Part shown: one piece after another, positions 21,444-45,574 of the stretch
Layout of the letters: each line of letters starts with the position of its first letter
Numbering within the stretch: the stretch's first letter is position 1
Assembly (NCBI GenBank): GCA_029558835.1
Contig: JAKQDH010000206.1
Location: forward strand, 1-64,000
DNA from: Planctomycetota bacterium
Lineage (GTDB): Bacteria > Planctomycetota > Phycisphaerae > UBA1845
Length of the DNA: 64,000 nt
Direction: 5' to 3'
The notes under the pieces: generated by a model
Seen by the model: only the letters and a program-made list of their open reading frames with translations
Database searches by the model: none
What the model was told of the DNA's origin: nothing
Position numbers and translations under genes: made by a program

Positions 21444-23339
21444 TCAACCGGTGAAGTTCGTCTGGAACACGGCGAAGTCCGCTAGGTCTACATCGCCGTC
21501 GTGCTCGGCGTCAAAGGCGGCAAGGCAGGTATCGGCGCAGTCGCCACTGGCCGGGGGAACAGCCGGGCCGCCCTGACACTCCACGAAGGCTTGGTAGTCG
21601 TTGAGGTCAACCTGCCCGTCCGCAGTGTAATCCCCGCCGGCCAGCAGTTCGCACTCGTCCGGAAGTCCCGTGCCGTTGCAGTCCATGCTCTGGCCGCATC
21701 CGGGGACCGCGCAGCGCCCGCCGGGTGCGCCGCAGTCGAGGTCGCAGTCGTCGGGAAGGCGGTTGCGGTTGCAGTCCAGCGACGTGCGCAGAACGACCAG
21801 CCCCGCGAGGCCGTCGGCGACGTACAGGTACTCGGCGCCGTCGCCCGCGACGCCCTCGGCATTCCCGGGCGTGTCATACCACCCGATGGACACCGGATGC
21901 GTGGGATCGGAAACGTCCAGCAGGCGTACGCCGGCGAACCAGTCCGCCACGGCCACGTTGGTCCCGACGACCGCCACACTCTCGGCAGCGCCGGGCGTGT
22001 TGTACGTTCCCGTCCGGAAGGGATGGTACGGATCCGACGTGTCCACGACGTGCACTCCTGCGGAGCCTGCGGCTACATACGCATACGCTCCCTGCAGAGG
22101 TGTGCTGACCGCAACGCGTCCCGCCGTGCCGGGAACCGAGCACCGGCCAAGTTCCGCAGGCGCGGCAGGATCGGAGACATCGACCAGCAGCAGCCCGATG
22201 TTCCAATCGCCCACGTAGGCACGCGTGCCGGCCAGTGCTACGTCGAACGAGAAGGTGGGGTAGATGTCCGTCCCGCCCACCCAGTCGCACGGCGGTGGCG
22301 ACACGTCGAACACCTGCACGCCCGCGAACGCGTCGGCGACATAGGCGTACCCCCCGGCCGCGGCGACCCCAAACGCGTATCCCCCTGTCTCGCAAGCACC
22401 CTCCGCGAATGGGGCTGTGGGTTCAGCGACGTTGATGACGTGCAGCACGCCGAGCGCGTCATACGGGTAACTGACGGCATCGACGAGGTACACGTACCCG
22501 TCGGCCACGTCCAGGTCGAACACATAGCCTGGGGTGTCGCACGCACCCACGCGGATCGGGTCCGTCGGATCGGCCACGCTGATGACCTGCAAGCCCGTGT
22601 CATACCCGGCCGCGTACACGTAGTCTCCCACCCGCATCACCCCCATGACGGCGGCACCGCCGGTCTCGTACAGCCCCACGGGTTGCGGATCCGCTGGGGT
22701 GGACACGTCGAACGCGATCAGCCCGGTGGAGTAATCCGTCAGGAAGGCATGCGTCCCGGGGCAGGGCCGACCATCCGCGGCACGTGCCCGAAGTCCCGCC
22801 GCGGTCGGCGCCTGGAGGCTCGGAGGCCGCGGGTCTCGTCGCGGAGCCGTCCTGCCTGCCGCGTCAGCCGGAGGAGGGCGCGTAGGTCGTGGTTCGTGAG
22901 GTGCTCGTCCTGGAGGATGCCGGGCCGGGTGGTACGTGGGGGCGAGGGAGAGTGGTGCTGGTGGGAGGCGGGCACGCACGATGTCGATCGTGATGAGTAC
23001 GCCGCGGAGTTCGTCCCCGAGCCGGTCGGCTTTGTAGCGCGCCCTGTCGAATGGTCCGTGCTGCAGTTCGTAGTCGACGGTGCCGTACGCGCCCCAGTCC
23101 GGCCGGCCGTTCTCGTCGATCGTTGGCCGGATGGTGCTGCGCGGTTTTTGGAACGGCAGGGCCAGGATGGGGCCCCACTCCTGCCACTCAACCCATCGCT
23201 CGAGTTCGCGCTCGTTGAAAAGTCCCTCGTTGTCCAGGCCGGGCACGTTGCCGAAACCCGTGGCGCGCTCGATTCTGATCTGTGGCGAGACAGGCAGGTC
23301 CGCGATGTCTCGGATGTCTTCGTCGTGTGTTCGATTCAT
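21444..23339 (-). CDS. Chimeric ORF: decayed repeat-gene product joined to 5'-truncated LVIVD-repeat dockerin-type protein
   Basis: The open frame encodes 631 residues but looks like two genes joined. Residues 1-125 belong to the three-copy family also seen at 1-151 and 45185-45480. Residues about 126-195 are Pro/Arg-rich and appear to be that gene's tail read in the wrong frame. From about 196 (HAFLTDYSTGLIAFDVS) begins a beta-propeller of LVIVD-type repeats (GLxVIxVxDPxxP), followed by DCNRNRLPDDC and DCNGTGLPDEC motifs and two dockerin-like Ca loops ending DGDVDLADFAVFQ. LVIVD proteins are normally secreted, yet no signal peptide precedes the propeller here, so the original 5' end is missing. 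The fused ORF may be translated but probably not exported. Confidence 0.65.
   Translation of the reverse strand: MNRTHDEDIRDIADLPVSPQIRIERATGFGNVPGLDNEGLFNERELERWVEWQEWGPILALPFQKPRSTIRPTIDENGRPDWGAYGTVDYELQHGPFDRARYKADRLGDELRGVLITIDIVRARLPPAPLSLAPTYHPARHPPGRAPHEPRPTRPPPADAAGRTAPRRDPRPPSLQAPTAAGLRARAADGRPCPGTHAFLTDYSTGLIAFDVSTPADPQPVGLYETGGAAVMGVMRVGDYVYAAGYDTGLQVISVADPTDPIRVGACDTPGYVFDLDVADGYVYLVDAVSYPYDALGVLHVINVAEPTAPFAEGACETGGYAFGVAAAGGYAYVADAFAGVQVFDVSPPPCDWVGGTDIYPTFSFDVALAGTRAYVGDWNIGLLLVDVSDPAAPAELGRCSVPGTAGRVAVSTPLQGAYAYVAAGSAGVHVVDTSDPYHPFRTGTYNTPGAAESVAVVGTNVAVADWFAGVRLLDVSDPTHPVSIGWYDTPGNAEGVAGDGAEYLYVADGLAGLVVLRTSLDCNRNRLPDDCDLDCGAPGGRCAVPGCGQSMDCNGTGLPDECELLAGGDYTADGQVDLNDYQAFVECQGGPAVPPASGDCADTCLAAFDAEHDGDVDLADFAVFQTNFTG
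22760..23339 (-). pseudogene. Decayed copy B of the three-copy gene family (frameshifted)
   Basis: The fullest copy of the family. The first 125 residues read in one frame (ELERWVEWQEWGPILALP, WGAYGTVDYE, GVLITIDIVRARLP). The continuation lies in another frame, where LQDEHLTNHDLRALLRLTRQ followed by AGRLRDETRGLRA forms a convincing amphipathic, coiled-coil-like tail. A frameshift near 22930-22960 would join them into a protein of about 190 residues. No known family is recognised. It sits at the left edge of the accessory island. Confidence 0.55.
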
Positions 23340-23750: not shown

Positions 23751-26700
23751 TCAGGAACCCGGAAGAGGTTTGGTGGGATCCGGGGGGGTGCCGGGCTGAT
23801 CTTCATTGGCCACGTGAGACCGCTCATTCATTCTGTGATCCGCCTTGCTGCTGAGTAGGTAGGCAAGCTCGGTCGCGTCGTGCTTACTCCACCGACGGAC
23901 CACGTCCACCAAGAGGTCCGCCTCCCACCGCGCCGCTCTTTCTGCCAGTTCGGACAGCCTCTTGCCCTCCTTGATATGGCTCCACAGCTTCTGCGCCATA
24001 TCTTGACTCCAAGAGAAATCACCAAAGACCAGAGCGAGGTCACATGCCGTATCGACCTGGCTGATGCGAGCCGCGAGTGCGGGTTTGTCGATCGCGTTCC
24101 AGATTATCGCGGCTTCGTCCTCGCCCACGGCGTTCGCCTCGCGCAAGGCGAACGCCACTACAACCGGATCATCGATGTGGTTGCGCCGCTCGGCCAGGCG
24201 GGCCCAGTCAATGCGTTGGATTACTTGCGGTGAGAATCCGTAGCAGGGCATCAGCGTCTCGCATAAGAGCTGCATCGCCTCCGCGAAGTCGTCCGCATCC
24301 AGAACATGCCGCGTCAGGCACTCTCCGTCCCACAACGGTTCGGTGACTTTGAGCAACCGCTCGCCACCTTGAGCCAAGGCGTCCGCGCGAATGTGAAAGG
24401 CGTACAGGTCGGGGAGCTCGTTGAGTCGCTCCGCGAATCTCTCCCGGTTCATCAGAGACCACACGTGTTCGCCAGTATCCTCCGCGGCCCGGAAGAGGCT
24501 GCCCAGGCAACGACAAACGCGGGTGATGTCGTCATCAGTGTCAAGGGACGCAGCAATCCTGGTGGGGTCCGCAAGGTCGCGCAGGTCTCCGCCGCACGCC
24601 CGATGTACGCTGTAAAGGGTGCATACACACTCAATGGCTTCCTCAACATGCTCGAAGCGGTCGATGTGTGCCTTTGCCTTGCCTTGCGGACATGCAGACC
24701 AAAAAGCCGCTGCTGCTGCCGGGTTGGCTTGCTGCAGTATGGTGATGCATCGGCAGATTTGTTTCGCATCGCCTAGAGTATCTGCCCGCCGTGTGAGGTC
24801 AGTGTACAGCGATTCCCACACGGCAGTTCCGAGGCTGGGGCTGGCGTTGAACAGGTCTGCAGCCCAACGCGCCATGCGTTCGATAGGGCCAGGTCCCGCG
24901 ATGAGGCTGGCAAGCTTCCTGGTGTCGAACAGGGCGGCAATGGGTTTCTGGATCTGTTCGGCAAGGCCGGCCAGTGTGGCGGCGCAAAACACGACATTCT
25001 CCGTATTGGCCAGTGCCTCGATGGACGCGATGAGTTGCTTAAAGGCGAGCGTGCGGGCCAGTGCCACCGCCGCCGGTTCGTGCGCCGTACGGAGTTCCCG
25101 GAGCACGGTGCAGACGTGCCAGACGTGCGGGTCAGCGCTCAGGGCCTCGCCCAGCGAGGAGGCGTCGATTGCTTCCCAAAGCTGCTCGCCGGTGTGAACG
25201 TCAACTGCGTAGAGAGCGGCAACGCAGCCGCAGACGCGGCTGGCGTCGGACGTTGTGTGGGCGTTGAGTTTCGCGGCGAGGCTGGTCACGTCCACACTGC
25301 GCCAAACCTTCTTATTGCACGTAAGAAAGGCCGGATGAACCGAACAGAGGAACAGCCATACGTCGTCGACAGTCGCAGACTCGTTCAGTTTGCGTGTCAA
25401 CTCCGGTCCCGCAAACGCACTCAGCAGCGCATCACCAGCTCGTCGCTCGAGGCCATATACGCCACTCAGGCACTCGCTTGCAGTGCCTAGTTGCTCGAAG
25501 GCGTGGAGCCGGTCGGCAATACACGTCAAGACCGGGCCGCGGAGCCGGGATTCCGCCGCCCTCCGCCGCAACCACCGCAGGATCGCCGTGACGGAGCGCT
25601 CTCGCCCGAGTACGGACTTTACAAGGCCTTCCTCTTCTAGCCGTTCGTCAACGCGCCGAAAGACACTCTGGGGGGCGCTAGCGACAGCTTCCAGGCCGTT
25701 CGGCGTGTCGGCTGCGGCGTATCGGTAGATGAAGTCCTCGAGGCTCCACGGCTTGCGCCGGAACTCCTGCCCGTGTTCCCAGTAGGCGGCGGCGAGGCTG
25801 GCGTGGGGCAACCCATAGAAGAGCTGGCCGTAGCGCTTGGACTCCGTGATCTCACGCCGCCGCACCAGCTTATGTAGCTCAGTGTCGGTGAAGCCGAGCT
25901 CGTCTGTGAGAAACGCTTCGGCGGTGGATACCTCCCCGAGATAAAGTGGGGCCAGGGAGAGTAGGATGCGGGGGAAGCGTGGACCATCAGACCTCAAATC
26001 TCCGAGGTCTTCGCACACGCCTTCTCTGACCCAGGTCTTGGGATCGCCACTGCCCGCTGCCGCATCGCAGCCGCGGAGGGCGTAGGTAAGCAGCCAGTAG
26101 TCGTCCTTGCCGACGGTACGGAGCTGACTTCGAATCGCCTGCGATGCGAAAACGTGGGGATTCTTGGCGCGAGCCGCAAATGCGCAGATGATGTCATCGG
26201 CGTACGCGAACGGTGTCAGTACAACGGTCGGCAGTTTGTCAAGCGGTTCAAGTCGGGAGTCTTCGTGAGGGATCAGCCGCGCGGTGATGACGACGTATCC
26301 GTCGAGGTCGGTCTCCTTGAGTTCGCCCCAGAGACACTGGAGCTTGTACGGCTCGAGGTGCATGTTCTCGAGGAGGAACAGCTGATCCGCCTGTTTGATG
26401 AAAGTCGCCAGTTTATACACATCGAAGTCGCGGTGCAACCGGCAATCGAGATAGTAGGAGTCCTCAAACTTCTCACCGCGCCAGTCGTACGCGAGCCAGC
26501 GTGCGAGCACCGTCTTGCCCGTTGCCCGCTCGCCGGTGAGGCGGACGACGTGGCTTTTGCGAAGCTCATCTCGCATCTCGTTGATCTTTTCGTCGGGCCG
26601 GTAGACGCGCCCGTCCCGAAAATCAGCGGCTGTTGGGCCGGACTTCCGGAACCAGTGCAGCTGCTCGTTGCTGCGCGTCTTCATTTCGTCCCTGAGCGGC

Positions 26701-28076
26701 CGCACTCCTCTGGGCCGGGAGAGTCCTGGTTGTTGCTGCCTCAGACCTCCCGGGAGCTGCTTGCGTGCCCCCTCGGGTGACACTTGCGGCCGGGACCTGC
26801 GAAACTGCCGCAGGATCTTCATGACCGACCGTGCTGCTTCGGCCTGATTCGACACGCGGTCCAGCGTGGCGCTGATTTGGGCGGTGAAGCGTGCATCCTC
26901 ACCCGGAGTGGCGTAGAGCCGCAGCAGTTCTCCGGCTTCATGTCGTTCTCGCCATAGGTACTGACGTACGTAAGCACACACCTGCGGAAGGAGCGAGCGG
27001 TTGGGCAGAAGCTTGTATGGGTATTGCATGATGAATGAAGCCAGCGCGGGGCGGAAGTGCGCGGCGACGTCTTCTTCGCGTACCCCTTGGTGGAATTGCT
27101 CCTCGAAATGGAGTTCCACTTTGCGCCGAACATCTGCAGCAAACTCGATCGTGCAGGCGACCTCTAATCGTTGCTCTGCTTCATGATCCAGCACCACCCT
27201 TTCGGGAGCGCCAGCAGGAATCTGTTGCAGGTCCCTGCACGCTTCGCGGTACTCATTGGCCGCGGTGACAAAGGCATCGACGACTGGCCCGGCTGCGGAT
27301 GGAGCGCCGCCCCGCGCCCGTTTCAGAAGGTCAAGGCACTCACGCGCTTGACCGATCTGCTTGAGCCAATCCTCCAGGAAGCAGGCCGCTAGTCTTGGAT
27401 TGACCCCGAGGAGCTCCTCGTGCGCAAGGCACGTGACCTTGGTAATAGCGCGCGCCAGGTCAGTATTGTACGTGCTAACGACATGCTCGATGCGGTCACG
27501 CTGCTCCTTGGTCGCCTCGCCGGTCGCGCGTGGGTCGCCGACGAACTGCAACGCGTCGAGCAACTTGGCCGGGTCAATCACCGTCGGGTCGTCATTGACG
27601 GCATTGAATGCGTCGTCCACGAGCTGCCAGGCGCTCACCGCGTCGGCGCTTTTGCAGAAGGCCTCCTTCGCTGCGTCGAGGAACGTGTTCGCTTCGACCA
27701 AGTTCGATGTGAGCGGGACCGTGGTGTGGAGCGACCATGTCGTTTGATGGACACTCGGGACGTCGATGGAGTGCGGGGGGGCATCCTCCAAGTCCAGGCA
27801 CGTTCGCAGCAGGGCGGCAGCCTTTGACGCGAATACCCCGAACTGCTCGGGATAGGTCTTCTTCTTCTGCCGCTTGGCGCGCCATGTCGGGAAAAGAAGG
27901 AAGCCCTCCATCCAGTGGACGTGAGCGTGGACATGAGCGCGAACCAGCAGTGCGCGGAGCAGCCGTGCTTCATTGCTGCGTCCGAGCGCATTGCCGCTGA
28001 CCTCGTTGGTTTGCGACTTTCTGCCGCCGAACACGATTCTGACTGGCGCATCGTAGTTTTCTGATTTTGCACTCAT
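23751..28076 (-). CDS. Large STAND-like P-loop ATPase with C-terminal helical repeats, candidate defence protein
   Basis: 1441 residues without signal peptide or membrane helix. The N-terminal 1-470 is mainly helical and matches no family I recognise. An ATPase core follows: P-loop GERATGKT at 515-522, a Walker-B-like FLLENMH (567-573, Glu in place of the usual Asp), and a VVITAR sensor-like strand at 595-600. From about 880 to 1395 the protein is built of roughly 38-residue helical units with a loose pattern LW..ID...LA..L (for example QLWEAIDASSLGEAL and HVWSLMNRERFAERL). An N-terminal module, central STAND-like NTPase and C-terminal solenoid is the layout of bacterial conflict proteins such as Avs, whose solenoid senses phage protein. 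Defence is inference. The start codon has only a weak ribosome binding site. Divergent from the neighbouring operon. Confidence 0.75.
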   Translation of the reverse strand: MSAKSENYDAPVRIVFGGRKSQTNEVSGNALGRSNEARLLRALLVRAHVHAHVHWMEGFLLFPTWRAKRQKKKTYPEQFGVFASKAAALLRTCLDLEDAPPHSIDVPSVHQTTWSLHTTVPLTSNLVEANTFLDAAKEAFCKSADAVSAWQLVDDAFNAVNDDPTVIDPAKLLDALQFVGDPRATGEATKEQRDRIEHVVSTYNTDLARAITKVTCLAHEELLGVNPRLAACFLEDWLKQIGQARECLDLLKRARGGAPSAAGPVVDAFVTAANEYREACRDLQQIPAGAPERVVLDHEAEQRLEVACTIEFAADVRRKVELHFEEQFHQGVREEDVAAHFRPALASFIMQYPYKLLPNRSLLPQVCAYVRQYLWRERHEAGELLRLYATPGEDARFTAQISATLDRVSNQAEAARSVMKILRQFRRSRPQVSPEGARKQLPGGLRQQQPGLSRPRGVRPLRDEMKTRSNEQLHWFRKSGPTAADFRDGRVYRPDEKINEMRDELRKSHVVRLTGERATGKTVLARWLAYDWRGEKFEDSYYLDCRLHRDFDVYKLATFIKQADQLFLLENMHLEPYKLQCLWGELKETDLDGYVVITARLIPHEDSRLEPLDKLPTVVLTPFAYADDIICAFAARAKNPHVFASQAIRSQLRTVGKDDYWLLTYALRGCDAAAGSGDPKTWVREGVCEDLGDLRSDGPRFPRILLSLAPLYLGEVSTAEAFLTDELGFTDTELHKLVRRREITESKRYGQLFYGLPHASLAAAYWEHGQEFRRKPWSLEDFIYRYAAADTPNGLEAVASAPQSVFRRVDERLEEEGLVKSVLGRERSVTAILRWLRRRAAESRLRGPVLTCIADRLHAFEQLGTASECLSGVYGLERRAGDALLSAFAGPELTRKLNESATVDDVWLFLCSVHPAFLTCNKKVWRSVDVTSLAAKLNAHTTSDASRVCGCVAALYAVDVHTGEQLWEAIDASSLGEALSADPHVWHVCTVLRELRTAHEPAAVALARTLAFKQLIASIEALANTENVVFCAATLAGLAEQIQKPIAALFDTRKLASLIAGPGPIERMARWAADLFNASPSLGTAVWESLYTDLTRRADTLGDAKQICRCITILQQANPAAAAAFWSACPQGKAKAHIDRFEHVEEAIECVCTLYSVHRACGGDLRDLADPTRIAASLDTDDDITRVCRCLGSLFRAAEDTGEHVWSLMNRERFAERLNELPDLYAFHIRADALAQGGERLLKVTEPLWDGECLTRHVLDADDFAEAMQLLCETLMPCYGFSPQVIQRIDWARLAERRNHIDDPVVVAFALREANAVGEDEAAIIWNAIDKPALAARISQVDTACDLALVFGDFSWSQDMAQKLWSHIKEGKRLSELAERAARWEADLLVDVVRRWSKHDATELAYLLSSKADHRMNERSHVANEDQPGTPPDPTKPLPGS

Positions 28077-30105: not shown

Positions 30106-30570
30106 ATGGCCCAGAGTTTCCAAATCCCGCCGGGCGACGTCGAGTACCGCAATACGCTGCGCGATGCGCGCGGTACTGAAGTGCTCAAGTTCGGGTACCG
30201 CGAGGTGGTCACGATCGACCCTGAAGGGCAGTCAAGGGTCTTCAAGGAGTCCGAACACGTTGCGTTGGCCGACGGTCGGCTGTTCACGGCAGCAACACTC
30301 GCGACCGGGAAGATCGAGCTCGCGATCTGCGACTTGTGCCGCTACCCGCTCCCGCCGCGGTGGTGGTGGAGCCAGCCCGAATCTCCGTCATTGGGCTGCA
30401 TGGCGCGTGAGTCCGGCGCATTCTGTGCCGGTTGCTCGCTCTTTGTCTGCAAGAAGCACTCGGCGGTTGTCGCCGACGGCTCGGTGCGCTGCATCCTCTG
30501 CGCCCGTCGCTTTCGGTGGCGTGCGCTCTTTCGCGCCTTGTTCTTTACTCCGATCCGGGAGGATGCATGA
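30106..30570 (+). CDS. Binuclear zinc-finger (RING/FYVE-like treble-clef) protein
   Basis: 154 residues with strong GGAGGTG eight bases before the ATG. The N-terminal 70 residues look like a small beta domain (FKESEHVALADGRLFTAATL). The rest carries four ligand pairs: C75-x2-C78, C107-x2-C110, C115-x2-H118 and C129-x2-C132. The spacing C-x2-C-x28-C-x2-C-x4-C-x2-H-x10-C-x2-C is that of cross-brace binuclear treble clefs (RING/FYVE/B-box class). The C-terminal tail is basic and hydrophobic. In an operon with Ub-like, E2 and JAMM genes, a role as E3-like adaptor or target recogniser is an attractive inference, not shown. The stop overlaps the next start (ATGA), indicating translational coupling to the ATPase. 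Confidence 0.72.
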   Translation: MAQSFQIPPGDVEYRNTLRDARGTEVLKFGYREVVTIDPEGQSRVFKESEHVALADGRLFTAATLATGKIELAICDLCRYPLPPRWWWSQPESPSLGCMARESGAFCAGCSLFVCKKHSAVVADGSVRCILCARRFRWRALFRALFFTPIREDA

Positions 30571-31469
30571 TGTCGCAATCGTGGCGTGACCAGTTGATTG
30601 CCCAGATTGATTTGTGTCGCCCGGGCCCGCGGGACAAGGGCCTGCTGGCGCTGCGCGCGCTTGCAGCAAACGGCCGCCTCTCGGAGGCGATGTGCCGTTT
30701 CCACTACCTGCGCCTGTTGCTTCATCCGCCGCGGTGCGCGGACAGCCTGGCAGGTTTCACCGAACCCCCCTCGCTCGAGGAGTGGCGTTCGGCGGTCGTC
30801 ACGGAGGCGCCGATTGGCGTCCTGACTGAGGTCGAGGGCGCTGAATTCGGCCCGCATCTTTCGGATCGTGTCGAGCACTGGGCTGTGGCTGGGACCACGG
30901 GTTTTGGAAAGACCGTCACGCTGCGCGGGCTCGCCTTGGCGCTCGACGCGCTCGGCCGCGCGCTGCTCGTGTTCGAGCTGAAGCGTGACTGCGCCGACTT
31001 CGTGCAGCGGCTGGCCCGGTGCGTGCGCGTCCGTGCCGGCCAGGGAGCGTGGTTCGGCTTGCAGGCGCCTGCCGGTGTCGCCGATCGCGACTGGGCCATG
31101 GTGCTCGCGGCCATTCTGGCCGCGCGCTGTGGCCTGAAGCACGCCACGACGTCTCTTGCCCGCATGCTCACCTGGCTGGTCGAACAGCTCAACCGCGCAG
31201 CAGTCCGCGGGCGCCTTTGGCCGGATGTCCAACTCCTTTGTGACGTCGCCGTCGCCGCACCGTCGGCGAAATTCGCTGCGAAGGAGGACTACGAGCGCAG
31301 CTCGATCCAGGTGCTGGACGGGGTGGCCCACGCGCTGGGCCCGTTCGCCCGTACGTTTCGGGGAATCGACCTCGAGCAGTTCCTCGCCCAGGGGACCAGT
31401 GTTGTGGTGGATCTCAGCACGCTGGAGCCGCCGGCGCAGTGGGTGGTCATCGACGTGCTGCTCAGCTAG
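30567..31469 (+). CDS. FtsK/HerA-type ATPase, N-terminal part ending at an amber codon
   Basis: 300 residues. The ATG at 30567 overlaps the previous stop as ATGA, with GGGAGG upstream. A helical N-terminal segment (1-80) leads into a P-loop domain with Walker A GTTGFGKT at 109-116 and the FtsK/HerA-like strand LLVFELKRDCADF. The frame stops with TAG at 31467-31469, directly after WVVIDVLLS. The next codons, in the same frame, continue the same domain (Walker B ICILLDES). The TAG therefore interrupts the ATPase and most simply represents a CAG-to-TAG nonsense change. Genes at 452 and 1911 end in TAG, so TAG is a normal stop here. Confidence 0.75.
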   Translation: MMSQSWRDQLIAQIDLCRPGPRDKGLLALRALAANGRLSEAMCRFHYLRLLLHPPRCADSLAGFTEPPSLEEWRSAVVTEAPIGVLTEVEGAEFGPHLSDRVEHWAVAGTTGFGKTVTLRGLALALDALGRALLVFELKRDCADFVQRLARCVRVRAGQGAWFGLQAPAGVADRDWAMVLAAILAARCGLKHATTSLARMLTWLVEQLNRAAVRGRLWPDVQLLCDVAVAAPSAKFAAKEDYERSSIQVLDGVAHALGPFARTFRGIDLEQFLAQGTSVVVDLSTLEPPAQWVVIDVLLS

Positions 31470-31664
31470 GTGCTCATCGGGCGGATGGCGCGCGACCAGA
31501 AGGTCGACCGCACCGAGATCTGCATACTCCTGGACGAGAGCGACCTGCTGGTTACGGATGAGGCCCATGCTGGGTTTCCGGGCCGGCAGTCGCCGCTCAT
31601 GCGCGTCCTCCGCCAGGGCAGAGAGTTCGGCATCATGGTGGCTTTGGGGATCAACGTGCTATGA
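31470..31664 (+). pseudogene. ATPase middle fragment with Walker B, between amber stop and frameshift
   Basis: 64 codons in the same frame as the preceding part, starting with GTG immediately after the TAG. It carries ICILLDESDLL (Walker B) and RQGREFGIMVALG, the strand that in HerA/FtsK proteins precedes the sensor segment. It ends at TGA 31662-31664, within ATGA shared with the next ORF. There is no ribosome binding site, so it is unlikely to be made alone. Confidence 0.6.
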
Positions 31665-32629
31665 GCGCGTCTGAGTCTATTCTTAACAATGTCCAGAACC
31701 TCGTCATCCTCCGACAGGAAGCCCCTGGCTCGGTTGTCCGGGCGCTGCGCGCCCTGCCGCTCCCGCCCGAGGCCGCGGGCCTCCTGATGTCCCTTGACCG
31801 GGGGGACGCGGTTCTGCACCTGGCGGGCTGGCCGGAGCCGGTCCTGGGGCACGTGACGTTTGTTCCGCCGCATCGGGGTTCTACGGCCACGCCGGACCCG
31901 CAGCTTGACGTGGTTCCGGCAAGGCGACTCGCCGAATTGCCCGAGGTGCTTGACGAGCTAACACACGCCAAAGGCGAGCTGGGGCGGGTGCGCAAGAGCG
32001 CGGACGACACCCCGGACAAGATCATGGCGAACGTTCACGATGTCCTGGCAGACTGGATCCGTCAACCGGGCAAGCCGATGGCGCGGATCTGGGCTGCGCT
32101 TGGGATTGATGCCCCGTCCAAGCAGAAGGCGATCCGCAAGGTGCTGGCACCCAAGTTCGCGCAGATCCGCGACGAGCGGTTCGGTTCGGCGAAGGTGGCG
32201 ATTCTCCTGCCCAACGCGGCCGGCTATGCGCTCGTCGGTCGGGGTTCCCTGACCGGGCTGGGACGTGGTGAGGTTGTTCATCTGCACGGGGCCTGGTGGG
32301 CGCGCGACTGGGCCGTCAAGCAGGGCTACGAGGCCCACTTGGAGTGGCGGGTGGGAGTGGGTGTGAACCACCCTGCGGACGTGGGCTATTGCGCCGATGG
32401 TGTCTGGCACGTGATCGAGGTGGTGGACACGTCCTTCCTGAACCTTGCCGACGCGGTCCGGGCGAGCCTGGTGCTCTCGACCATCGTGCAGACCGTCACG
32501 ATCGTCACGAAGCTGAAGAGTGAGCACGCCCGCGTCCGTCGCCTGCTCGCCGTGGAGGACCTGGCTGGGGTGATGGACCGCGTGCAGCTGTCCACGTTCG
32601 ACTTCTACCTGCGGGAGGTGTACCCGTGA
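31661..32629 (+). CDS. ATPase C-terminal part with PD-(D/E)xK-like domain
   Basis: 322 residues in the -1 frame relative to the previous fragment. Its first residues (SASESILNNVQNLVILRQ) align in register as the continuation of the ATPase, so the gap is a one-base slip at CTATGAGC. Residues 1-80 complete the ATPase fold. A coiled-coil-like linker and small helical domain follow (about 85-165). The last 150 residues resemble a restriction-endonuclease-like fold: an Asp in PADVGY, the strand WHVIEVVDT with Glu, then two helices, as in nuclease tails attached to such ATPases. The usual Lys of ExK is replaced by Val, so catalysis is doubtful. The ATG overlaps the previous stop and could allow separate translation by coupling. 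Confidence 0.65.
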   Translation: MSASESILNNVQNLVILRQEAPGSVVRALRALPLPPEAAGLLMSLDRGDAVLHLAGWPEPVLGHVTFVPPHRGSTATPDPQLDVVPARRLAELPEVLDELTHAKGELGRVRKSADDTPDKIMANVHDVLADWIRQPGKPMARIWAALGIDAPSKQKAIRKVLAPKFAQIRDERFGSAKVAILLPNAAGYALVGRGSLTGLGRGEVVHLHGAWWARDWAVKQGYEAHLEWRVGVGVNHPADVGYCADGVWHVIEVVDTSFLNLADAVRASLVLSTIVQTVTIVTKLKSEHARVRRLLAVEDLAGVMDRVQLSTFDFYLREVYP

Positions 32630-33195: not shown

Positions 33196-33429
33196 ATGCA
33201 GCACTATGCGATCCAACATGTCAATGGGCAACCTCTCAAGGTCCCGGTCGCGCCGGATGGGAGTATCGACGTGGACGTGTTGTGTCAGCTGGCCAACGTC
33301 GCGCCGGATCGGGCGCTGGTCCTCCAGCGGCCGGATGGCAGCAATCAGCTGGTCCCGCGCGGCCAGAAGCTGACGGTGCGGCCGGGCGCGCAGTTCGTGG
33401 ACGCCCCGACGCACCGGCGGGGGGCGTGA
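33196..33429 (+). CDS. Ubiquitin-like (beta-grasp, multiubiquitin-type) protein
   Basis: 77 residues, ATG preceded by GAGGAG. The pattern VNGQPLKVP, DVLCQLANVAPDRALVLQRP and VRPGAQFVDAP follows the single beta-grasp unit of bacterial multiubiquitin/E2-associated Ub-like proteins (two strands, helix, two strands ending in GxxF). The C terminus is RRGA rather than a di-glycine, so either the terminal Ala is removed by the operon's JAMM peptidase to expose Gly or conjugation uses another residue; both are inference. The stop overlaps the E2 start (GTGA), which ties the two together. Confidence 0.68.
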   Translation: MQHYAIQHVNGQPLKVPVAPDGSIDVDVLCQLANVAPDRALVLQRPDGSNQLVPRGQKLTVRPGAQFVDAPTHRRGA

Positions 33430-33812
33430 CCGTGTCGCCCGTGCTGCGGGAGCACATCCGGATGGCGTCGTGCTTTTACCGCTTGGCGGTGGCGCGGGAC
33501 GGGGCCTGGGTGCGCGTGGACGACTTCGCGCTGCCGGCGGGCTTCAACGTGCCGGTCACGCAGGTGCTCGCAAGCCTCCCTCCGGACTACCCGCTGCGCG
33601 CGCCGGGGGTGCTGCCCTGGGGCCTCTTCCTCCGGCCGGGGCTGCGGTACCACGGCCGCTGCCACCCGAACATCGTCGAGGGCCAGGGGCCCGGCTGGGG
33701 CGCGTGGTCGTGGCTGTGCATCTTGCGCGTGGCGTGGGACCCGCGCCGGGATGACTTGCTGCGGTGCCTTGAGATGGTCCGGGCGGTTTTGTCGGCCCCG
33801 TCGGGGTGGTGA
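33426..33812 (+). CDS. E2-like ubiquitin-conjugating enzyme fold protein
   Basis: 128 residues starting with GTG at 33426, four bases overlapping the Ub-like gene. It shows the E2 core order: a strand ending LPAGFN, the LPPDYPLRAPG turn equivalent to the YPxxPP motif, then R-C-HPN-I (HPN at 80-82), Cys98 in SWLCIL, AWDP and a final helix (LLRCLEMVRAVL). HPN followed about 16 residues later by Cys and then WxP is the classical E2 active-site layout, so Cys98 is the likely thioester-forming residue. It resembles the bacterial E2 family associated with multiubiquitin and JAB-ThiF proteins. It would transfer the Ub-like protein to a target. Eleven bases separate it from the JAMM gene. Confidence 0.75.
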   Translation: MTVSPVLREHIRMASCFYRLAVARDGAWVRVDDFALPAGFNVPVTQVLASLPPDYPLRAPGVLPWGLFLRPGLRYHGRCHPNIVEGQGPGWGAWSWLCILRVAWDPRRDDLLRCLEMVRAVLSAPSGW

Positions 33813-33822
33813 GGTGTGCTGT

Positions 33823-35100
33823 ATGTTCGAGCCGTGCAACCAACTGAGTGTGCCGCCGGGGCCGCGGACTGTTCTCCGGTTCGTCGGGAACGGGTTTGGC
33901 GTCCTGCGCGACCACCTGACGGCGGATCCCAGTCGTGAGCAGTTCGCGTTCCTGCTGGCCCGGCCGGTTGCGACCGCGGACGGCGTGCTGCTGCTCGTGC
34001 TGGATGTGCTGCTGCCCGAGCCGCAGGACCTGGTCGCGCAGTCTGGGTTCGGTGTCGAGCCGCGACCGGAGTTTCAGGCGCTGGTGTATCTGCTTGCCGA
34101 GCAGCAGGGCCTCGTCGTGCTCGATGCGCACACGCACGTCTGCGATGGGCCACCCTCGTTCAGCCCGGTGGACTGGGCCGCCGCGCGGGCCAATGCGCGC
34201 TACATCGTGGAACGGTTCCCGCCGCCCACGACGCTCGGCCTGGTTGTGTTCAACCGCGGGCTGACCGCCTGTGACGGCATGCTGTTCGAGCGCGACCGCG
34301 CCGCGTTCGCCGCGATCACCGAACTGCAAGCCGTGGGGGCCGGCCTCACCATCCAGAGGACTGCAGAGGCGAGGGATGGTGCGCCAGTTGATGAGCGCTA
34401 CGCCCGCCAGCGGCTCGTGCCGGGCTGGAACCAGACCGGGCTGGAACATCGACGATGTGGAAATCTGGGCCGGTGTGAATACGACGGACTTGGTCGCCGA
34501 CCTCAATGGCGACGGCGTCGTGGACATCCAAGACTTTGCCGTGCTGGCGGACTGCCTGACGGGGCCGGAAGTGCCGCCGGCAACCGGCTGCGAGAACGCG
34601 GACCTCGATCAGGACGTGGACGTGGACCTGGCGGACTTCAGCGTGTTCCAGTTGCACTTCGGGGCGGGCCGGTGGCCTGCAACGCTGCCGTGCGGGAGAT
34701 TGAGAAACAAGGCGAGCGGGACTGTCATTCGCCGCCGCGGGAATCCCGCTCGGACCTGCGCCATTTGGCTGGGATGTTGCCCGCGTTCCATTTCTTGTAT
34801 GCCGCCTGTAGCTCCCTGAGTCGCTCCGGTTCCTGCGCGGCGAGGTCAGTCTCCTCGCCCACGTCCCGGCTCAGGTTGAAGAGCTGCGGCGCGCTCCGAC
34901 GCCGGGCAACGACCTTCCAGTCGCCTGCGCGCACCGCGGATTGCCGTCCGAAGCGCCAGAACAAGGCATCGTGGGGCGTGTCCTTCTTGCCGTGGAGGAA
35001 GGGCACGAGGTCGATACCATCGAGCTGCATCGCGGGTCGTACCGGGATACCGGCGGCCGCCAGTGCCGTCGCGTGGATGTCGAGCGACACCACCGGGTAA
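33823..35100 (+). CDS. JAMM/JAB peptidase with truncated E1 (ThiF) start; C-terminal half is out-of-frame run-on
   Basis: The ATG at 33823 follows GAGG at about 8 bases. Residues 1-175 form a JAMM (MPN/Prok-JAB) domain: Glu39 in SREQFAFLL, H103-T-H105, Ser114 and Asp117 (HxH-x8-S-x2-D), the zinc and catalytic ligands, all present. Residues 189-206 (DERYARQRLVPGWNQTGL) match the opening of E1/ThiF domains, which normally continue into a VVGAGGLG nucleotide loop. Here that loop is missing: at 34436-34447 the sequence joins the 3' end of a dockerin-type gene in another frame, and the remaining 220 codons to 35100 are run-on without homology. The ancestral gene was therefore a JAB-E1 fusion. The peptidase may still be active; the E1 is lost. 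Confidence 0.7.
   Translation: MFEPCNQLSVPPGPRTVLRFVGNGFGVLRDHLTADPSREQFAFLLARPVATADGVLLLVLDVLLPEPQDLVAQSGFGVEPRPEFQALVYLLAEQQGLVVLDAHTHVCDGPPSFSPVDWAAARANARYIVERFPPPTTLGLVVFNRGLTACDGMLFERDRAAFAAITELQAVGAGLTIQRTAEARDGAPVDERYARQRLVPGWNQTGLEHRRCGNLGRCEYDGLGRRPQWRRRRGHPRLCRAGGLPDGAGSAAGNRLRERGPRSGRGRGPGGLQRVPVALRGGPVACNAAVREIEKQGERDCHSPPRESRSDLRHLAGMLPAFHFLYAACSSLSRSGSCAARSVSSPTSRLRLKSCGALRRRATTFQSPARTADCRPKRQNKASWGVSFLPWRKGTRSIPSSCIAGRTGIPAAASAVAWMSSDTTG
34420..34447. repeat. 12-base direct repeat at the E1 truncation junction
   Basis: CCGGGCTGGAAC occurs at 34420-34431 and again at 34436-34447. The first copy encodes PGWN of the E1 start; the second encodes PGWN of the dockerin-type fragment in a different frame. 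The layout suggests microhomology-mediated joining. Confidence 0.7.
34436..34700 (+). pseudogene. 3' fragment of a dockerin-type exported protein gene
   Basis: In the frame starting at 34436 the sequence encodes PGWNIDDVEIWAG, DLNGDGVVDIQDFAVLADC and DQDVDVDLADFSVFQLHFG, the closing module of the many exported proteins in this genome. No start codon, signal peptide or upstream domain belongs to it; its 5' part was replaced by the JAB-E1 gene. The frame continues past the usual end of such modules, so its 3' end may also be altered. Confidence 0.7.
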
Positions 35101-44350: not shown

Positions 44351-45160
44351 ATGTGTCGGAACCGACTGCACAGCTTCATCACTTTCATGTTCGCCACAGC
44401 CGTACTTTCGGGCGCATCCGGGTGGGCCATCGCACCTCCGCCAGCCGTCGCGGACGACGGGGCAATGGGTGCCAGTACGCTCCGGCCCAAGGTCACAGAC
44501 GAGGAGCGCGGACAGCTGAAGCAGCTGCGCGAGCAACTGGACCAGGGGGAACTGACGCCGCAGGCGTTCGCCACCCAGGTGGACGAGCTTCTGGGGGATC
44601 GGTTCGCAGGACAGCGCCGCTGGGGCCGTGGGGTGTGGCGCGCCGCCGTGACGCGCGGGCTGTTTGCCCGCGTCGCTGACAGACTGCAGCTCACTGACGA
44701 ACAGCGCGTTGCGGCTCGCGACGCTTGGCAGGCGGCACGCCATCGGGCACGGGTGCTGGCGCTGGAGGGAATGGCCAGCATCCGATTGACGCTGACGACC
44801 GAACAGCGCGCTGAGTTCGACCGGCTTCGCGCGGAGCGGTTCGCCTCCCTGCGTCAGGAAGGCGATAGTGCCGGGACAGGGCTCGAGCGCCGCTGGGCAC
44901 CAGGGGCATGGCGACAGCGCGCACGGCAGTTCTTCGTCCGGGTGGCGGAGCACCTCCAGCTTACGGCGGAGCAGAAGGCGCAGATCCGGGAAGTACGCCA
45001 GGGGACCCAAGCGGGCTTCCGCGACTTGTGGCAGGATACCCGCACCCAATTCAAATCCCTGCTCACACTGGAACAAGCGCAAACTCTGGAGCAGCTTCGC
45101 GAGCAGTTCCGTGGCCGGGCCGCGGGTCGCGTCCGGCCGGATGGCGATCCGGCAGAATGA
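44351..45160 (+). CDS. Spy/CpxP-like periplasmic LTxxQ protein
   Basis: 269 residues, ATG preceded by GGGAG. Signal peptide (about 1-30, ending ASGWAIA). The mature protein is almost all helix and contains repeated LTxEQ motifs (LQLTDEQRVAARDAW, LTTEQRAEFDRL, LQLTAEQKAQIREV, LTLEQAQTLEQL), the hallmark of the Spy/CpxP family of periplasmic chaperones and envelope-stress proteins. It appears to be a tandem duplication of a roughly 110-residue unit. It stands alone, preceded by a possible promoter and followed by a decayed gene on the other strand. A chaperone or metal/stress-sensing role is inferred from the family. Confidence 0.8.
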   Translation: MCRNRLHSFITFMFATAVLSGASGWAIAPPPAVADDGAMGASTLRPKVTDEERGQLKQLREQLDQGELTPQAFATQVDELLGDRFAGQRRWGRGVWRAAVTRGLFARVADRLQLTDEQRVAARDAWQAARHRARVLALEGMASIRLTLTTEQRAEFDRLRAERFASLRQEGDSAGTGLERRWAPGAWRQRARQFFVRVAEHLQLTAEQKAQIREVRQGTQAGFRDLWQDTRTQFKSLLTLEQAQTLEQLREQFRGRAAGRVRPDGDPAE

Positions 45161-45184
45161 CGAAGAAGCCCAGGGAACATCTAA

Positions 45185-45480
45185 GCGGGCGGCGGGCGCG
45201 CACGAGGTCGATCGTGAGCAGCAGGCGCCGCAGGTCGTCCCCGTGCCGGTTGGCATTGGAGCAGGCCTTGGCGAACGGTCCGTAGATGCGTTCGTGGTCG
45301 ACCGTGCCGAACGCGCCCCAGTGGGGCCTCTCGTGCTCGCCGGTCGTTGACCGGATCGTGCGACGCGGCTGCTGGACCGGCAGCGCAATGAGGGGGCTCC
45401 ACTCCCGCCACGCGATCCAATGCTCGAGCTCCTGCTCGTCCAGGAGCTCGTCGCCGTCCCGTGAGCGCTCGAGAAAGGAC
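45185..45480 (-). pseudogene. Decayed copy C of the three-copy gene family
   Basis: On the minus strand the region encodes LLDEQELEHWIAWREWSPLI, WGAFGTVDHER, YGPFAKA and LLLTIDLVRARRP, clearly homologous to copies at 1-151 and 22960-23339. The C-terminal coiled-coil part present in copy B is missing; similarity ends about 25 bases from the stop of the Spy/CpxP-like gene. No start codon with a ribosome binding site is evident. I treat it as a truncated relic. Confidence 0.55.
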
Positions 45481-45574
45481 AGAGTGACTGCGGGTGGCCG
45501 CCAACTGCGGGCAACGTCCCGGCTTGACGGGCGGCCCGTTCGAGAGCAACAGCACGTCATTCATGCCGCTCGGC

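Follow-up and report, generated by a model that had tools for sequence, protein, structure and literature searches.

The segment at positions 34381–34700 of the window, the whole 64-kb stretch of DNA analysed here, is very probably a deletion scar in a decaying mobile island. At this point, the first residues of an E1 domain, fused to a JAB domain, run into the 3′ end of a gene for a dockerin-type secreted protein. The arrangement is put down to erosion of the genome in an ordinary way rather than to a new fusion gene.

Island layout and the probable loss of its right end

The host genome is a MAG-like assembly in 224 contigs with a completeness of 91%. Nine loci from planctomycete MAGs served as intact relatives, namely G083 (OFTM5), G240, G144, both G499 copies, L071 (UBA7708), L072 (RS_9_45), L073 (PL23b_bin.92) and L076 (RS_11_12). 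Of these, G083 comes from the same family as the host and is the nearest relative. Five JAB-E1 relatives were included in the full-protein alignment, and the Ubl and E2 alignments comprised five proteins each. Wherever the contig was long enough, the genes of the relatives followed the order zinc-ribbon protein, HerA-like ATPase, small membrane protein(s), Ubl, E2 and JAB-E1. G083 differs upstream, where a VWA protein is found, and carries Ubl, E2 and the JAB-E1 fusion in the same order as the window. No relative of the island was present among the viral contigs searched, and a scan of genome contigs with the JAB alone gave no match. The features of the window cluster are summarized in Table 1.

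Table 1. Features of the island and of the joint in the window.
Feature	Position	Strand	Remarks
STAND-type NTPase	23751–28076	−	Large (1441 aa); oriented divergently to the operon; may form the left part of the island
Small Cys-rich (zinc-ribbon-like) protein	30106–30570	+	Opens the conserved operon; L071 homologue in the same place (E 1.7e-13)
HerA-like ATPase gene	30569–32629	+	Broken; sub-threshold HerA_C match in its first part
Ubl	33196–33429	+	77 aa; C-terminus ...RRG-A; aligned with four relatives
E2-like protein (Prok-E2_E)	33429–33812	+	Invariant cysteine; Pfam PF14462, E 1.4e-5
JAB domain and first residues of the fused E1	33823–34455	+	E1 adenylation domain gone
First copy of CCGGGCTGGAAC	34420–34431	+	E1 sequence; codes for P-G-W-N within the E1 motif
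Joint	34436–34455	+	Compatible with both readings, E1 (GLEHRR) and dockerin (PGWNIDD); contains the second 12-mer copy
Dockerin-type secreted-protein gene, 3′ end	34439–34819	+	5′ part gone

The conjugation genes of the window retain their characteristic residues. In the Ubl, whose fold is assigned from sequence and context, the Arg-Gly pair preceding the last residue is invariant in the five aligned proteins, and the residue that follows it in the window and in L005, L026, L028 and L029 is variable (A, V, C, E or R), as if the JAB trimmed one residue to expose the glycine. The E2 passes the curated cut-off of its family (25.3 versus 25 bits), and its cysteine is shared by all five aligned proteins. 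The JAB is 42% identical to the G083 JAB-E1 over 190 aa, and its JAMM motif (HTH...S..D) is present as HTHVCDGPPSFSPVD at 34129. The divergent STAND-type protein gave a weak nSTAND3 match below cut-off (E 1.1e-5), and a large NTPase occupies the same divergent position in G240 (NACHT) and in G499a (P-loop protein). A large STAND/NACHT-type NTPase gene is divergently oriented next to the HerA-Ubl-E2-JAB/E1 operon in each of three genomes, represented by the window, L026 (13003–16251) and L028 (12928–16665).

The ATPase gene carries two lesions, a TAG stop at 31467–31469 and a switch to another frame near 31661. Its three pieces align along the full length of a single uninterrupted ORF (701 aa) in L071, and GC content by codon position switches frame at the same point, near 31661. 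The two lesions could in principle be assembly errors. Most of the other long genes appeared open when the ORFs of the window were inspected.

In eight of the nine relatives, the E1 is followed by a tyrosine integrase and a tRNA gene, located 2.8–6.7 kb from the point equivalent to the break. In the ninth, L076 (8821–11649), whose JAB-E1 carries an insertion after the JAB domain, a serine recombinase and then a fragment of a ComM-like ATPase gene (identified by eye) take the place of the tRNA. The window contains no tRNA gene, and no island genes were found to the right of the joint. A search of the window for tRNA remnants that might mark an attachment site returned chance-level matches only, and a search for right-flank synteny through the neighbouring sulfatase yielded distant family members with no usable shared order. 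Because the integrase/tRNA side of the relatives is missing here, the right end was most likely lost from the island in one deletion; the window copy would formerly have possessed an integrase and an adjacent tRNA gene.

The joint between the E1 and dockerin sequences

JAB and E1 are encoded by a single ORF in all nine intact relatives, and the G083 protein matches ThiF with an E-value of 2.1e-30, together with a weak Prok-JAB match. In the window, the JAB frame starts at 33823, passes through DERYARQRLVPGWNQTGLEHRR and never reaches an E1 glycine loop. Only the first E1 motif, ARxxxxxGWxQ, is retained, up to 34434; the GxGG loop and everything beyond it are lost. Alignment of the five relatives with the window shows that the invariant residues A195, R196, G202, W203 and Q205 are kept, and the next invariant ones, G217, G219 and G220, are gone. 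A ThiF/E1 adenylation domain with a GxGG loop is therefore absent, and the E1 reading stops after QTGLEHRR. Judged from its sequence, the window copy is best described as a truncated relic and not a working member of the JAB-E1 fusion family.

A natural end of the JAB gene at this point in the lineage had been raised as a point to be settled among related genomes, and is exceedingly improbable. No support for such an end was found among the relatives examined, all nine of which encode a full E1 in the same ORF, and the window sequence breaks off within an E1 motif instead of at the edge of a domain.

Downstream of the joint, in another frame, PGWNIDDVEI is followed by two dockerin loops that give a Pfam Dockerin_1 match with an E-value of 1.6e-6 (28.6 bits against a cut-off of 22.9). 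Eight other sites in the same genome carry GGCTGGAACAT[CT]GACGA, read in frame as GWNIDD[VI]. Each of them has an open frame of at least 500 aa upstream, a figure set by the limit of the locus, and a dockerin-like tail follows most of them. The residue preceding GWN at these sister sites is mostly C, once S and once P. At the scar, neither dockerin-family sequence nor a large N-terminal secreted part was found upstream of 34436 in the dockerin frame. At the other end, the dockerin frame stays open for about 45 residues (34681–34819) past the ends of the sister genes and overlaps a convergent sulfatase gene; the tail may have lost its own stop. On the minus strand, similar short protein stretches, ..ELERWVEWQEWGPILALPFQKPR.. 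and ..ELEHWIAWREWSPLIALPVQQPR.., were noticed by eye in the ORF list at 22800–23300 and 45060–45560, the former joined in frame to a dockerin protein.

A functional JAB-dockerin fusion created by domain shuffling has almost no likelihood. The two pieces are contiguous, as such a fusion would have them, but their frames differ, and the JAB ORF continues as a non-homologous stretch to 35100. Moreover, JAB is a cytoplasmic-type enzyme, whereas dockerin tails sit on secreted proteins. The frame rules such a fusion out, barring programmed frameshifting at the joint.

Exact copies of the 12-mer CCGGGCTGGAAC lie at 34420 and 34436; a search of both strands gave no third copy in the window, and among 12-mers repeated exactly at a period of 12–20 bases it stands alone in the 64 kb. 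Copy 1 encodes the (P)GWxQ motif of the E1 family, whose G, W and Q do not vary among the intact relatives. The dockerin reading GWNIDDV begins in copy 2, at 34439, or at 34436 if the proline seen in one sister is counted. The repeat was rejected as the joint, as copy 1 is wholly E1 and a repeat-mediated deletion leaves one copy, whereas two are present.

After the Q of the motif, the window reads TGLEHRR, and the relatives mostly follow x-x-L-[EA]-x-x-[KR], with DLLERLK in G144 and TTIGHQR in G083. When compared with the E1 family, QTGLEHRR is equalled by only 0.3% of the 7-residue readings of the window. Since TGLEHRR fits the relatives and so few readings score as well, E1 homology probably runs to 34455. 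The E1 and dockerin readings thus overlap within 34436–34455, which places the joint there, with an estimated parental overlap of about 9–17 nt. The GLEHRR match is short and could be due to chance, in which case the joint could have zero overlap.

These results bear out part of the preliminary description of this segment. The ThiF/E1 start DERYARQRLVPGWNQTGL is present and the glycine loop never follows it, the 12-base repeat is exact and has no further copy in the window, and PGWNIDDVEI and the dockerin lie in a different frame. Its proposed comparison with related genomes yielded the intact JAB-E1 gene in nine relatives, and the dockerin sisters with their long upstream frames were found in the host genome itself. 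Of its proposal of microhomology-mediated joining, the truncated E1, the loss of the dockerin 5′ end and the overlapping deletion ends were retained; the 12-base repeat as the microhomology was not, its first copy belonging to the E1.

An assembly chimera, in which two unlinked metagenome contigs were joined at a short shared word, is unlikely. The MAG-like genome is fragmented and the short overlap at the joint could mislead an assembler, but that overlap is estimated at 17 nt at most, and the k-mers usual in assembly are longer. The exact 19-mer at the joint is unique in the genome, and no orphan remainder of the E1 was found. Further points against a chimera are the independent ATPase lesions in the same island copy and the comparable joints, with gene order kept, in a second relic (G051, see below).

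The deletion scar most likely arose as follows. A mobile island composed of the zinc-ribbon protein, the HerA-like ATPase, small membrane proteins, Ubl, E2 and JAB-E1, with an integrase beside a tRNA gene, would have integrated and subsequently decayed through the ATPase lesions and the right-end deletion, in either order. The deletion, presumably a single event, would have started just past the first conserved E1 motif, taken the remaining E1 and the integrase/tRNA side together with the 5′ portion of an adjacent gene for a dockerin-type secreted protein, and ended within the GWNIDDV motif of the latter. Illegitimate recombination at a short sequence fitting both parents (about 9, at most 17 nt) would have joined the ends. 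The JAB now reads out of frame into dockerin DNA, and the dockerin tail lacks a start of its own.

No other E1 above cut-off, and a second relic

A ThiF-family search of the host genome returned partial matches only, all below cut-off, and a search of the same genome with the full JAB-E1 protein did not reveal the E1 remainder. The earlier statement that the window encodes no other E1 thus holds, and extends, for matches above cut-off, to the whole genome searched. At 91% completeness, this absence is strong but not final. In G083, the ThiF match of the island itself is the only one in the genome.

A truncated system kept active by an E1 encoded elsewhere is highly unlikely. The Ubl, the E2 cysteine and the JAB active site are intact in sequence and the genome is incomplete, which would leave room for such a supplier; against it, neither the host nor G051 contains a ThiF match above cut-off, G083 possesses only that of its island, and the ATPase is broken. 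The Ubl could probably not be activated in a genome that lacks an E1, and the absent E1 and the broken ATPase gene together suggest that the island is a recent, non-functional relic. On this genomic evidence the system is most likely inactive, as the preliminary description had considered; its other suggestion, a supplier E1 elsewhere, found no match above cut-off. Equally remote is the prospect that E1 loss was selected and not neutral, with the activating enzyme repeatedly removed from the island in this family and the Ubl (here also E2 and JAB) kept for an E1-independent role, for example as an antidote or decoy against an intact copy.

A second relic was identified in G051 (C468), from the same family, by alignment with G083. 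It keeps the Ubl, whose C-terminus is NGG, and two internal deletions have removed parts of E2, JAB and E1. The E2 breaks off after some 45 residues, where it leads into the C-terminal part of the E1, which in turn leads into the tail of a downstream radical-SAM gene; about 8 and 5 nt at the two joints fit both parents (by eye). It shares with the window copy the deleted E1 adenylation domain, the retained Ubl and the short overlaps at the joints; unlike in the window, the deletions are internal to the island and tRNA-Met is still present. Taken together, G051 and the window suggest that short-overlap deletions have eroded the island at least twice in this family.

Relation to known conjugation operons and deletion scars

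What looks like a fusion is most probably a scar, and annotating the Ubl cluster of the window as a functional conjugation system would be inappropriate. G083, G240, L071, L073 and G499 provide intact relatives for studying the HerA-Ubl-E2-JAB/E1 island. PADLOC recognised none of the window Ubl, E2 and JAB, and the exact island arrangement was not found in the literature searched, itself only part of the whole.

The island fits among the Ubl-conjugation operons of prokaryotes set out by Iyer et al. 2006, nearest to type 6e, in which JAB is fused N-terminally to E1 and accompanied by a Ubl or polyUbl, an E2/RWD-fold protein and a metal-binding protein (PMC1779556). Shared with type 6e are the JAB-E1 fusion of the relatives, neighbouring Ubl and E2-fold genes and a Cys-rich protein in the operon; the attachment of JAB to the E1 N-terminus, seen in the relatives, is lost in the window. 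The type 6e metal-binding protein has the pattern C-x3-C-x35-38-H-x2-C; its possible counterpart in the island is the Cys-rich protein. Unlike type 6e, the island has a single, non-tandem Ubl of 73–77 aa ending in RG-X in the window and relatives, its E2 keeps the cysteine that the type 6e E2/RWD protein lacks, and a HerA-like ATPase belongs to its operon. Ubl systems have also been linked with NTPase-based conflict systems (PMC7159879).

The scar itself resembles ordinary microhomology deletion scars in its contiguous gene loss, frame-breaking joint, short overlap and nearby lesions. Such scars occur in decaying genomic islands, and the one in the window is likewise ordinary and needs no new mechanism.
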